DNA from: Pirellulales bacterium
GTDB taxonomy: Bacteria > Planctomycetota > Planctomycetia > Pirellulales > PALSA-1355
Direction of reading: 5' to 3'
Assembly (NCBI GenBank): GCA_022844125.1
Contig: JALHMI010000007.1
Location: 194,896 to 258,895 of the forward strand
DNA length: 64,000 nt
The notes under the pieces were generated by a model. The model was given only the letters and a program-made list of their open reading frames with translations, was not told the origin of the DNA and did not search any database. A program made the position numbers and the translations under genes. Shown piece after piece: positions 8,144 to 13,150 of this stretch. Numbering within the stretch: the stretch's first letter is position 1; every line of letters begins with the position of its first letter.

Positions 8144-10060
8144 TCACTGCAGATTTCGGCGACGACGGGCAGCAATAATTGCAACAGTGCCAAGGGCCGC
8201 CAGGATCATGCTCGACGGTTCGGGGACCCCGATCGCTTGGCTCTCGATGAGAAAGACTTGCCCCTGGTCGGTGTTGAAGGCCAGGCCATGCGCACCGTAG
8301 CGGAGTAGCGTATAGGAGCCGGCATTGCCGACCTCGGGAATCGTGAGCGTGTCGATCTGGATGAACGTGGCCATATCGAAGATGCGAATCGTCTGTCCAC
8401 GGAGCATGTAAACGTGACCGGCTTCGGCATCGACGGCAACCCCGCCGGAAAACTCGCCGCCCGAGAATTGACCTGCCGCGGTAAAGTCCGTCAGGTCGAA
8501 AGCGCGGGCTTGCGTGCTCACGAGCAAGTCGCCGTCGAGAGCGATTCCCGGATCGGGCCCGCCCAGGGCTCCGCCGTATTGCGCGCTGAGCGAGTCGCCC
8601 GGTCCGAGGGTGACTTTGGCGAGGTTCTGACCGCTCGTCGCATAGAACGTGCTGGGGTCGGGCGAATAGGCCAGGTTGTAGGCGGCGATGCCCACGATTG
8701 GGTCGTGCGTGAACGTCGTGCCGTCGAACTGCCAGACCTGCAAGCCGACATACTGGGGGCTTCCGGCCCGTAGCAGTGAAGCCACGAACGTGTCGGGTCG
8801 CGTGGGCACCGCGGCCAGGTCGGCAACGATGTAGTTCTCGGGCACGGTCGACTGCGGCCCGGGCGTCATCGAGTTGAGATCGAGGGCTCGGATCTTGAAT
8901 GCGCCGGAAATGTCGACGTACATCTGCGAACCATCGGACGAGACCGTAATCGCTTGCGGTTCGCTGCCAATGAAGGTCGAGTCCATGATGGTGCGCGTGA
9001 CCAGATCGATTCGCGTAATGGAGTTTCCGACGCCGACACCGCCGCTGGAGGGCACCGCCGCATAGAGAATGTCGCGCACCGGGTCCATCTTCAGAGCGTT
9101 GACGGGGAGATCGAGGATCGTCTTCGAGGTAACGACGCCTGCCGAAGCGGGTTGGATCCCGAGGAATAGCCCCAGCGCACCGAGCACCGCGAGCGAGGTG
9201 CCTCGTCTCGAGAACCGCCGGCATCCGAATACGGCCAGGATCCCCAGCGCTGCGAGCATCAAGCTCGACGGTTCGGGGACGGTGAGGCCAGCGAACTGGC
9301 CGAGGGGATCGAAGTTCTTGTACTCGGTGACGCCATCGAGGCCGGCGTTGAAGAGGTGCAGTCGGCCAGCACCGATGGCGTACACGCCATTCAGTCCCAC
9401 GGCCACGTCATCGATCGCGCCGCCCGTGTAGTAGAACTGCCCTTCGGAAGACGCAGTGACATTCACTGGGTCGATTCGCACGAGTGAGATCAGGCCCGCG
9501 TCGTTGTCCATGGTGAGCAGGCTGCCGGGCTGGGCTGGGTGGTCGCTCATGCCGTCCAGGTCGACGCCAAAGCTGCCATACAGGTTGCCGATGCCCGGGA
9601 TGGCCTGGTAGTTGATGTTGCCGGTGATTGCGCCGGTGAGAGGGTTGATCTCGCCAACATCGGTGCTGACCGTTCCGCCGGGCGAAAAGCCCACGTAGAG
9701 TTTGCCGTTCGCGACGCCGATGCTCTCCATGAAAAACGGCTTGTTGCCGTTGAGCAGGATCTCGGTGCTGTGCAAGAGCGCACCGGTCTGCGGATTGATC
9801 TTGAGCAGCGAATAGCCGGCGTTGGCGAAGAAGCCGTCGGCATGGGCGGTGATCGCAAAAATCGAGCCGTCGAGATAAGCAAGATCGGCGCCGAAGAATT
9901 GGAAGCCGATTGGGCCGACAGTCGTAACGGCCGCAGTTTCGGAATTGATTCGCATCAACGTGCTGGCTGCGGTGTTGATCGTGTAGAGCGATTCGGCGGC
10001 GGCGGGCGCGGCGCTTGACGCCAGGCCGAACAGCAACGTTATTTTCAGGCAGGTGTTCAT
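8144..10060 (-). CDS. Secreted two-part beta-propeller-like protein with two PEP-CTERM signals
   Basis: A 638-residue protein with an N-terminal signal peptide (MNTCLKITLLFG to AAAES). Residues about 25-255 form repeated short beta units (YTINTAAST, LLKINPQTGAL, VGEINPLTGAI) like a propeller. A complete PEP-CTERM signal follows at about 261-287 (VPEPSSLMLAALG, then CRRFSRR). Another hydrophobic signal-like segment (about 290-310, ending QPASAG) leads a second propeller-like part, and the protein ends in a second PEP-CTERM signal at 612-638 (VPEPSSMILAALG, then AARRRR). PEP-CTERM is the exosortase sorting tag, normally only at the extreme C-terminus. It looks like an in-frame fusion of two secreted proteins. 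ATG 10060 gives the signal peptide at residue 1. Confidence 0.8.
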   Translation of the reverse strand: MNTCLKITLLFGLASSAAPAAAESLYTINTAASTLMRINSETAAVTTVGPIGFQFFGADLAYLDGSIFAITAHADGFFANAGYSLLKINPQTGALLHSTEILLNGNKPFFMESIGVANGKLYVGFSPGGTVSTDVGEINPLTGAITGNINYQAIPGIGNLYGSFGVDLDGMSDHPAQPGSLLTMDNDAGLISLVRIDPVNVTASSEGQFYYTGGAIDDVAVGLNGVYAIGAGRLHLFNAGLDGVTEYKNFDPLGQFAGLTVPEPSSLMLAALGILAVFGCRRFSRRGTSLAVLGALGLFLGIQPASAGVVTSKTILDLPVNALKMDPVRDILYAAVPSSGGVGVGNSITRIDLVTRTIMDSTFIGSEPQAITVSSDGSQMYVDISGAFKIRALDLNSMTPGPQSTVPENYIVADLAAVPTRPDTFVASLLRAGSPQYVGLQVWQFDGTTFTHDPIVGIAAYNLAYSPDPSTFYATSGQNLAKVTLGPGDSLSAQYGGALGGPDPGIALDGDLLVSTQARAFDLTDFTAAGQFSGGEFSGGVAVDAEAGHVYMLRGQTIRIFDMATFIQIDTLTIPEVGNAGSYTLLRYGAHGLAFNTDQGQVFLIESQAIGVPEPSSMILAALGTVAIIAARRRRNLQ

Positions 10061-10398: not shown

Positions 10399-10608
10399 AT
10401 GAGCGGCCTGACCGACATCGAGATCCAAGAGATCAATGCGAAACTCGGTACGCTTCGCCAACAGATTCGTGAGACCGGCGCCACGGTGCTGAGTCCGACC
10501 CCGGCTTGGGAATCGCTGCGCAAGGAAATCGCCACGCTCAATCGCAAGCTCACCACCGACACGAACGCCAAGGCGAAGCGCGCCGCGGCGGCAGCAGCGA
10601 GCGTTTAG
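10399..10608 (+). CDS. Small hypothetical helical protein
   Basis: A 69-residue protein starting MSGLTDIEIQEINAKL. It is charged and likely helical (coiled coil about residues 7-55), with an Ala/Lys-rich tail. I do not recognise a family. A CGGAG box lies about 10 bases before the ATG at 10399, which is why this start is preferred over an earlier one. It is alone, 210 bases upstream of the sulfatase. The 339-base gap upstream (10061-10398) holds no gene I can support and should contain the promoters of the divergent PEP-CTERM gene and this gene. Confidence 0.55.
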   Translation: MSGLTDIEIQEINAKLGTLRQQIRETGATVLSPTPAWESLRKEIATLNRKLTTDTNAKAKRAAAAAASV

Positions 10609-10817
10609 GCCGCGAGCGAACTCACCCTCCGACCCCCCCGCATCGCGCATCCAAAGACTGGACGTCGCGCGTGCGGACCACGCCGATTCCGGCCTGCGAT
10701 GGAAACGTCGCTGGCGCCGGTTGCTGTTGGACATTTCGCCCTCGGTCAGCGAAACTCAGAACCACTTCGGCGGTTCAATTCTTGTTTGGGGGGCCAACTT
10801 TTACTGAGGAGTCTGTC

Positions 10818-12197
10818 ATGCGCAGTTCATTCGGGTGTGCTTTGCTGGCGGCTCTTTTCGCCGCGACTTCGACCGCGGCGGCAGCCGATGCGAAGAAGCC
10901 GAACGTCGTCATCTTTCTGTGCGACGATACCGGTTGGGCCGAATTCGGATTTCAAGGGGGCGACATCCCCACGCCAAGCATCGACTCGATCGCCAAGAAC
11001 GGCGTCCGGTTCACGCAAGGCTACGTCTCGGGGCCCTACTGCAGCCCGACGCGCGCCGGCCTGATGACCGGACGCTATCAGACGCGGTTCGGCCACGAGT
11101 TCAACAGCGTGGCGCGTCGCGCGGGCCTGTCGCTCGAAGAGAAGACGATTGCCGACCGTCTGAAGACCTTGGGTTACGCGACCGCGGCGGTCGGTAAATG
11201 GCATCTCGGTGAGCAGCCGCCGTATCGGCCCTGGCTGCGCGGCTTCGACGAATTCTACGGCACGCTGGCGAACACCCCGTTTTTCCATCCGACGAACTTC
11301 GTCGACACCCGCGTGTCGAAGGAAGTGCAGAAGATCGAGGACGAGGAATTCTACACGACAGATAAATATGCCGAGCGCGCGGTCGAGTTCATCGAAGCCC
11401 AGAAAGGCAAGCCGTGGTTCCTGTACTTCCCGTTCAATGCCCAGCATGCGCCGCTGCAAGCGCCGAAGAAGTACCTGGATCGGTTTCCGCATAACAAGGA
11501 CGAAAGGCGCCGGATTTTCGCGGCGATGATGTCGGCCATGGACGATGCCGTGGGCCAGGTGTTGGCGGAAGTTCGCAAGCAAGGCGAGGAAGAGAACACG
11601 CTGATCTTCTTCCTCTCGGATAACGGCGGCCCGACGCTGCAAACCACGTCGAGCAACAAACCGCTGCGAGGATTCAAGAGCACGACCTGGGAAGGCGGCG
11701 TGCGCGTGCCGTTCGCCGTGCAATGGCAGGGGCACATCCAGCCTGGGCAGACGTACACGAACCCGATCATTCAGCTCGACATTTTGCCGACGGTCATCGC
11801 GGCGGCGGGCGGAAAGGTCGATCCGGCCTGGAAGCTCGACGGCGTGAATCTGCTGCCGTACCTGGAAGGCAAAGAGACGGCCAAGCCGCACGAGACACTC
11901 TACTGGCGGTTTGGCGAGCAGCGTGCCATTCGTCACGGCGATTACAAGCTCGTGGTCGGTCGCGACGGCAGTGGCCAGCCAGAGCTCTATAACCTGGCGA
12001 GCGACATCTCGGAGTCGAAGGACCTCGCCTCGGCCGATCCGGAGAAGCTCAAGGAGCTCGAGTCGCTGTATGCGAGCTGGAATGCCGAGCAGGCGCCACC
12101 CAGCTTCCCGAATGAACCCGCCGGCAAGGGTCAGGGCAAAGGCAAAGGAAAAGGAAAGGGTAAAGCCCGGGCCAAGGCCAAGGCGAATCCGGCCTGA
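10818..12197 (+). CDS. Secreted arylsulfatase-type sulfatase with Lys/Gly-rich tail
   Basis: A 459-residue protein. Signal peptide MRSSFGCALLAALFAATSTAAAA, then the metal-binding start KPNVVIFLCDDTGW. The formylglycine motif C-S-P-T-R (in GPYCSPTRAGLMTGRY) is intact, followed by AVGKWHLG, FFLSDNGGP (metal ligands) and a C-terminal subdomain. Formylglycine sulfatases release sulfate from sulfated polysaccharides or other esters; planctomycetes carry dozens. A GAGGAG box lies before ATG 10818. The end is unusual: about 25 residues of alternating Gly and Lys, then Ala/Lys (GKGQGKGKGKGKGKARAKAK), strongly basic, perhaps binding an anionic substrate or surface. No formylglycine-generating enzyme is encoded in the window. 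Confidence 0.95.
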   Translation: MRSSFGCALLAALFAATSTAAAADAKKPNVVIFLCDDTGWAEFGFQGGDIPTPSIDSIAKNGVRFTQGYVSGPYCSPTRAGLMTGRYQTRFGHEFNSVARRAGLSLEEKTIADRLKTLGYATAAVGKWHLGEQPPYRPWLRGFDEFYGTLANTPFFHPTNFVDTRVSKEVQKIEDEEFYTTDKYAERAVEFIEAQKGKPWFLYFPFNAQHAPLQAPKKYLDRFPHNKDERRRIFAAMMSAMDDAVGQVLAEVRKQGEEENTLIFFLSDNGGPTLQTTSSNKPLRGFKSTTWEGGVRVPFAVQWQGHIQPGQTYTNPIIQLDILPTVIAAAGGKVDPAWKLDGVNLLPYLEGKETAKPHETLYWRFGEQRAIRHGDYKLVVGRDGSGQPELYNLASDISESKDLASADPEKLKELESLYASWNAEQAPPSFPNEPAGKGQGKGKGKGKGKARAKAKANPA

Positions 12198-12304: not shown

Positions 12305-13150
12305 ATGACCGTGATCGAGAGCGTTCGAATCAACCAAATTTTGGCACTTATCGTGGCGCTTGCTCCCAGCTTATACACCGTGGGCCAGGTCAGCGGCGCT
12401 TCGCCGGGTGGCGCCCTGGTGGTCGTTGGTGGCGGGGAGATTGGGCCGGCGATTGTCGCGCGGTTCGTCGAACTGGCGGGGGGCAAAGACGCCGAGATCG
12501 TCGCGATTCCGACGGCGCACGACGTGCCCGACGCCGGCGAGCGATTGGCGAAATCGCTGCGCGAGACGTTCGGCTTCGAGCGGATCACGATCCTGCACAC
12601 CAAGGATCGGGCGGAAGCGGACTCGGAGGAATTTGTCGCTCCGCTGCAAAGTGCGACCGCGGTCTGGATCGGCGGCGGTCGGCAGTGGCGGCTCGTCGAT
12701 TCCTATCTGGGGACGCGCACCGAACGCGAGATCAAGTCGGTTCTCGAACGCGGGGGCGTCGTGGGAGGCAGTTCGGCCGGAGCCACGATTCAGGGTTCGT
12801 TCCTGGTGCGCGGGGCGCGCGAAGGGAACCGGATCATGGTGGCTAAGGACTACACCCAGGGCCTCGGATTGATGAACGGCGTGGCCATCGACCAGCACAT
12901 TCTGCCGCGCGGCCGGGCGGGCGATCTTGCGCCGGTCATCGACGCGCATCCCGAACTGCTGGGTCTGGGGGTCGATGAGTCGACGGCGATGGTGGTCGAG
13001 GGAGATCGGTTCGAGGTGATCGGCCGGGGCGTGGTGGCCATTCACGATGGACGCGAGCACGACGGCCGGAAGTATTACTTCCTGGCGCCGGGGGAGCAGT
13101 TCGATTGGAAAGCCCGGCGGCGCGTGGAAGCCGACAACGTTCGTAAGTAA
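12305..13150 (+). CDS. Cyanophycinase-like peptidase (family S51)
   Basis: A 281-residue protein. Residues about 8-32 are hydrophobic and end near VSGAS, a likely signal peptide. VVVGGGEIGPAIV and AVWIGGGRQWRLVD are followed by the nucleophile elbow GGSSAGATIQG (catalytic Ser about residue 160), characteristic of S51 peptidases (cyanophycinase, dipeptidase E). The later GLGLMNGVAIDQHILPRGR and GVDESTAMVV blocks also match cyanophycinase. Cyanophycinase cleaves the Asp-Arg polymer; exported relatives in heterotrophs may act on foreign cyanophycin or other beta-aspartyl peptides. GGGAG just before ATG 12305 serves as ribosome binding site. Confidence 0.85.
   Translation: MTVIESVRINQILALIVALAPSLYTVGQVSGASPGGALVVVGGGEIGPAIVARFVELAGGKDAEIVAIPTAHDVPDAGERLAKSLRETFGFERITILHTKDRAEADSEEFVAPLQSATAVWIGGGRQWRLVDSYLGTRTEREIKSVLERGGVVGGSSAGATIQGSFLVRGAREGNRIMVAKDYTQGLGLMNGVAIDQHILPRGRAGDLAPVIDAHPELLGLGVDESTAMVVEGDRFEVIGRGVVAIHDGREHDGRKYYFLAPGEQFDWKARRRVEADNVRK

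Follow-up and report, generated by a model that had tools for sequence, protein, structure and literature searches.

The window analysed here is a stretch of 64,000 nucleotides of Pirellulales bacterium DNA (GCA_022844125.1, contig JALHMI010000007.1, positions 194,896 to 258,895), and one of its ORFs encodes two complete PEP-CTERM cargo units joined in a single open frame. We consider it likely that this gene codes for a polyprotein, from which signal peptidase I and exosortase release the two PEP-CTERM cargos as separate surface proteins. The in-frame fusion, the intact signals, the recurrence of such fusions, the scarcity of internal starts, the selection on the junctions and the presence of exosortase genes are established at the level of sequence. 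The expression of the chain, its membrane topology and both cleavages are inferred, and no protein-level data are available.

Structure of the window ORF

The features of the window ORF and of the other multi-tag ORFs are listed in Table 1. A ribosome-binding-like site (Shine-Dalgarno-like AAGGA) is located upstream of the ATG. The two tags are independent matches to TIGR02595, both above the 16-bit cut-off, and Pfam PF07589 also matches two stretches of the ORF (E = 1.2e-10). The original prediction had described a full PEP-CTERM tag at about residues 261-287, followed by a signal-peptide-like segment and a second propeller-like part with its own terminal tag, and this description was borne out. 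As to the C-terminal placement expected of a PEP-CTERM tag, tag 2 conforms, and tag 1 fails with 354 further residues behind it. The N-terminal signal peptide expected of a cargo is recognized by inspection in both units, and also by a simple rule in unit 2; no SignalP-class predictor was used. The signal-peptide-like segment of the junction is RRFSRRGT-SLAVLGALGLFLGI-QPASA, and cleavage is predicted after residue 307 (ASA).

Domain B matches the YVTN/YncE beta-propeller model PF21783 (E = 2.8e-4, below the cut-off of that model) and the surface-layer propeller of PDB 1l0q (E = 1.6e-7). The AlphaFold model of the whole protein, which is based on only five aligned sequences and is not membrane-aware, has low confidence (pLDDT 62.8). 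In this weak model, two all-beta halves are separated by two short helices, and the nearest folds to the whole are tandem propellers. No shared function of domains A and B is known. Elsewhere in the window, an ORF resembling a secreted cyanophycinase-like (S51) peptidase was noticed by eye from the sequence at 12305-13150 (+), downstream of a sulfatase-like ORF at 10506-12197.

Table 1. Features of the window ORF and other multi-tag ORFs. Positions are those of the window unless a locus is named.
Feature	Position (strand)	Residues or length	Basis or content
Whole ORF: (signal peptide, domain A, PEP-CTERM 1) in-frame with (signal peptide 2, domain B, PEP-CTERM 2)	8144..10060 (-)	638 aa	Open frame, ATG 10060 to stop at 8144
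N-terminal signal peptide, MNTCLKITLLFGLASSAAPAAA	9995..10060 (-)	1-22	Sequence; cleavage site by inspection
Domain A, beta-propeller-like	9281..9994 (-)	23-260	Weak DUF6923 match (E 0.042); structure model; relatives
Internal PEP-CTERM tag 1, VPEPSSLMLAALGILAVFGCRRFS	9209..9280 (-)	261-284	TIGR02595 18.9 bits; PF07589 260-282
Arg cluster RRFSRRGT, predicted to end tag 1 and to serve as n-region for signal peptide 2	9197..9220 (-)	281-288	Sequence
Internal signal peptide 2, hydrophobic and cleavage regions, SLAVLGALGLFLGIQPASA	9140..9196 (-)	289-307	Simple rule and inspection
GTG, sole start-like codon in frame within the junction beyond the tag helix	9185..9187 (-)	292	Sequence
Domain B, YVTN/YncE-like propeller	8228..9139 (-)	308-611	Profile and PDB matches
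Terminal PEP-CTERM tag 2, VPEPSSMILAALGTVAIIAARRRRNLQ	8147..8227 (-)	612-638 (tag proper 612-635)	TIGR02595 23.0 bits
Two-tag ORF L001, genome of the window	L001 3235-6381 (-); G000:C4 about 249234-252380		HAF-like repeats, tag, signal peptide (internal ATG), DUF7453, tag
L011 (G003)		1243 aa	4 tags
L061	G047:C14	2427 aa	7 tags, six FGE domains
L070, L072			4 tags each
L069, L071			At least 4 tags each
L203			5 tags
L202		2298 aa	8 tags, laminin-G domains
L201		2531 aa	10 tags; runs off contig
L200 (single-contig 6.6 Mb genome)			2 tags, unassigned domain and GDSL lipase

Origin of the open junction

Two relatives, the family member G003 (L005, 66% identity) and G009 (L008), encode domain B on its own, preceded by a signal peptide of that gene. 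G039 (L006) has domain A as a single gene that ends in a tag, and G011 joins a relative of this domain to a different one. Both halves are found elsewhere as individual tagged genes. As the halves are separate genes in relatives, the window gene is judged to have arisen by fusion of two cargo genes. This particular fusion has been found in one genome only, and its junction has no orthologues.

The separate genes of the relatives, and a fusion that is unique so far, would also agree with a recent stop loss or with a sequencing or assembly error in the window genome, which would make the fusion accidental and perhaps non-functional. We regard this as highly improbable. A sequencing error in the form of a single indel was rejected, since undoing it would not yield two normal genes: neither of the other two frames has a stop just after tag 1. 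One of them has a stop, but ahead of the tag helix, and the remaining frame has none nearby. Thus, no stop in another frame is suited to gene 1, and no indel would turn this sequence back into a gene 1 that ends in a normal tag. The codon-position GC is continuous across the junction, and an accident also has to be reconciled with the other two-tag ORF of this genome and with the ORFs of 2-10 units in many genomes. A substitution that removed a stop cannot be excluded from the sequence alone.

The original prediction offered two readings, a fusion after loss of a stop and a genuine polyprotein. According to the separate-gene relatives and the recurrent junctions, both apply, at different times, with the exosortase cleavage inferred. 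Relatives with two ordinary separate genes, together with an obvious error here, were held to refute it; the separate genes were found, and no sign of an error was. An in-frame GTG was also proposed near residue 295. Such a codon exists, at residue 292, and it is a poor internal start because it lies inside the hydrophobic core and no charged n-region comes after it.

Recurrence of multi-tag ORFs

The genome of the window carries about 84 PEP-CTERM tags (TIGR02595), and its second two-tag ORF, L001, is unrelated in content to the window ORF. In related Planctomycetota, ORFs with 2, 3, 4, 5, 7, 8 and 10 tags were detected. Their domains are unrelated to each other and include FGE-sulfatase, laminin-G, HAF-like, GDSL lipase and DUF7453. 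Named records from another collection add multi-tag ORFs in other Planctomycetia (L096) and in Phycisphaerae (L116, L161 with 3 tags, and L165). Several units per uninterrupted ORF without internal starts, as expected of a polyprotein, are thus observed with 2-10 units; the window ORF has one poor GTG. That the junction recurs in many unrelated ORFs, of as many as ten units and mostly without a start codon at the junctions, fits a maintained polyprotein and not an error. A chance juxtaposition of tag and signal peptide was rejected on the same recurrence.

The third unit of L061 is a propeller-like domain among six FGE units, as in a cassette-like exchange of cargo. Most of the longest multi-tag ORFs, with 4 to 10 tags each, are located in one genome, G030 (L201, L202, L203, L204, L069, L071 and L072), which seems to be a polyprotein specialist. 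Most genomes with multi-tag ORFs are fragmented and probably metagenome-assembled.

A profile of the tag and the following signal peptide was run over 296, then 396 genomes of the order. Among the matches listed for the 396 genomes, about 40 full-length matches are stop-free and 2 contain a stop. This ratio is biased toward stop-free matches, since the profile was built from stop-free junctions. A phylum-wide search at E 1e-10 returned full-length stop-free junctions in the window genome only, and none was found in 289 genomes of Verrucomicrobiota, with a model that is insensitive to divergent junctions. As the model missed known junctions in three genomes (G778, G779 and G780), all the junction counts are lower bounds.

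Anatomy of the junctions

We collected 71 internal tags, of which 58 form tight junctions (no more than 16 residues from the tag helix to the next hydrophobic core) and 13 form loose ones. The recurring order is tag helix, Arg cluster, hydrophobic segment and small-x-Ala. In the predicted architecture, the Arg cluster has two roles, closing one tag and forming the n-region of the signal peptide that follows. In the tight junctions, helix and core are separated by a median of 8 residues, with a median of five Lys/Arg.

The open frame could also be explained by internal initiation or coupling, in which translation of gene 1 continues past a lost stop and gene 2 has a start of its own. A proper ATG precedes the signal peptide in L001 (MRSIRRGR...), and in the loose junctions of L017, L021, L024 and L059 the tag is followed by 20 or more linker residues and then by a normal ATG and signal peptide, with the frame open throughout. 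In the window ORF, however, the only candidate is the GTG, which falls within the hydrophobic core. In 53 of the 58 tight junctions, no ATG lies between the Arg cluster and the beginning of the core, and in 38 GTG and TTG are missing there as well; one junction of L061 has none of the three from VPEP to past the cleavage site. Without a start codon in that interval, translation could not begin there to give an independent second protein whose signal peptide works. Internal initiation was therefore rejected as a general explanation for most tight junctions and kept for a few loose ones, and for the window gene we hold it to be quite improbable. The 13 loose junctions, often with a normal ATG, may be read-through pairs with independent starts, and the loose fusions may stand midway between separate genes and polyproteins.

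It is also possible, though in our judgement unlikely, that the chain is made and never cut. The product would then be a multi-span membrane protein with periplasmic domains on helical hairpins, and the tags and signal peptides would be relics. No cleavage data are at hand to contradict this, and the open-licence literature searched has no description of internal tags that are cleaved. The signals themselves do not look like relics. A small-x-Ala site follows the core in all 58 tight junctions, as against 44% of the control windows, and AxA is present in 42 of the 58, as against 8.6% of the controls; part of this excess reflects the Ala-rich segment. The scores of the internal tags have not decayed and are no lower than those of held-out terminal tags (medians 39.9 and 33.9 bits). 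The PEP motif was used in selecting the tags, and thus its presence is not independent evidence.

Selection on the junctions, and exosortase genes

For the junctions, taken from tag to signal peptide, six groups of homologous units gave pairwise dN/dS values of 0.18-0.46. One HAF-tag-FGE fusion occurs in two genera of one family, with synonymous sites near saturation. These results indicate that the junctions have been kept as protein-coding sequence over long times. The tags and signal peptides would each already have been under selection before the fusion, and the six groups do not include the window junction, which lacks orthologues. Two exosortases are encoded in the genome of the window (79.0 and 76.5 bits), with the conserved Cys, Arg and His motifs, and at least one exosortase gene is present in all of the ten other multi-tag genomes tested.

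Proposed processing

In the polyprotein that we prefer for the window gene, Sec would export domain A, and signal peptidase I would remove signal peptide 1. The helix of tag 1 would then stop the transfer, and the Arg cluster would be left in the cytoplasm. With this cluster as its positive n-region, signal peptide 2 would re-insert and export domain B. Signal peptidase I would cut after ASA, and exosortase at VPEP 1 and VPEP 2. Two surface proteins in a 1:1 ratio would be produced, and the hairpin of tag 1 and signal peptide 2 would stay in the membrane. In longer chains, alternating signal peptides and tag helices would put all the domains in the periplasm and all the Arg clusters in the cytoplasm. 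Signal peptidase I and exosortase could then free every unit, with short helical hairpins staying behind in the membrane.

We also lean towards a polyprotein strategy of Planctomycetota in general, in which 2 to 10 or more cargos per chain are cut alternately by signal peptidase I and exosortase, the Arg clusters have dual use, and exosortase accepts internal tags. The general view that exosortase requires its tag at the C-terminus counts against the polyprotein reading. If the chains are cut, exosortase needs no free C-terminal tail. The multi-unit ORFs make this cleavage testable, because cutting shifts the product size by whole units. In annotation, a multi-tag ORF would be called one giant protein.

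Comparison with known systems

Known PEP-CTERM cargos carry one tag near the C-terminus 'virtually without exception', and atypically placed tags or very long tails were suspected to be non-functional (Haft 2006, PMC1569441). The internal tags described here are, in contrast to that earlier dismissal, no less well preserved than the terminal ones, and they belong to a design that is repeated. The first version of PF07589 in Pfam, from Rhodopirellula baltica, had 38 residues and overran the stop of many tags (PMC1569441); this overlong model may have reflected internal tags. In a literature search limited to open-licence papers, no description of internal or tandem PEP-CTERM tags or of an exosortase polyprotein was found. 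Each unit otherwise resembles a canonical cargo of PEP-CTERM/exosortase (EpsH) sorting (TIGR02595/PF07589/TIGR04178), with a signal peptide, a variable domain, and VPEP, helix and Arg cluster, and exosortases are present. The difference lies in the tags, which here occur internally and in up to ten copies per ORF.

The substrates of sortase (LPXTG) are similar in having a sorting motif, a helix and a basic tail, and in being cut by a membrane transpeptidase or protease, but the enzyme family is different. To our knowledge, that system does not place sorting signals in head-to-tail tandem with internal signal peptides.

Bacterial polyproteins cut by signal peptidase are known, such as FbcH of Bradyrhizobium (cytochrome b/c1), in which an internal signal sequence allows one ORF to give two exported or membrane proteins. 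The window gene shares this design, with its cleavage inferred. Unlike FbcH, the junctions here add a site for a sorting protease, the cargos are many and unrelated, and the number of units varies.

In viral structural polyproteins, stop-transfer and internal signal sequences alternate. The topological logic is the same here, with a C-terminal helix directly followed by the next signal sequence, whereas the present chains are bacterial, modular and presumably cut by exosortase, and no sequence relation is claimed. Cleavage of the chains, if it occurs, would give bacteria a virus-like route to many surface proteins at a fixed ratio from a single message.
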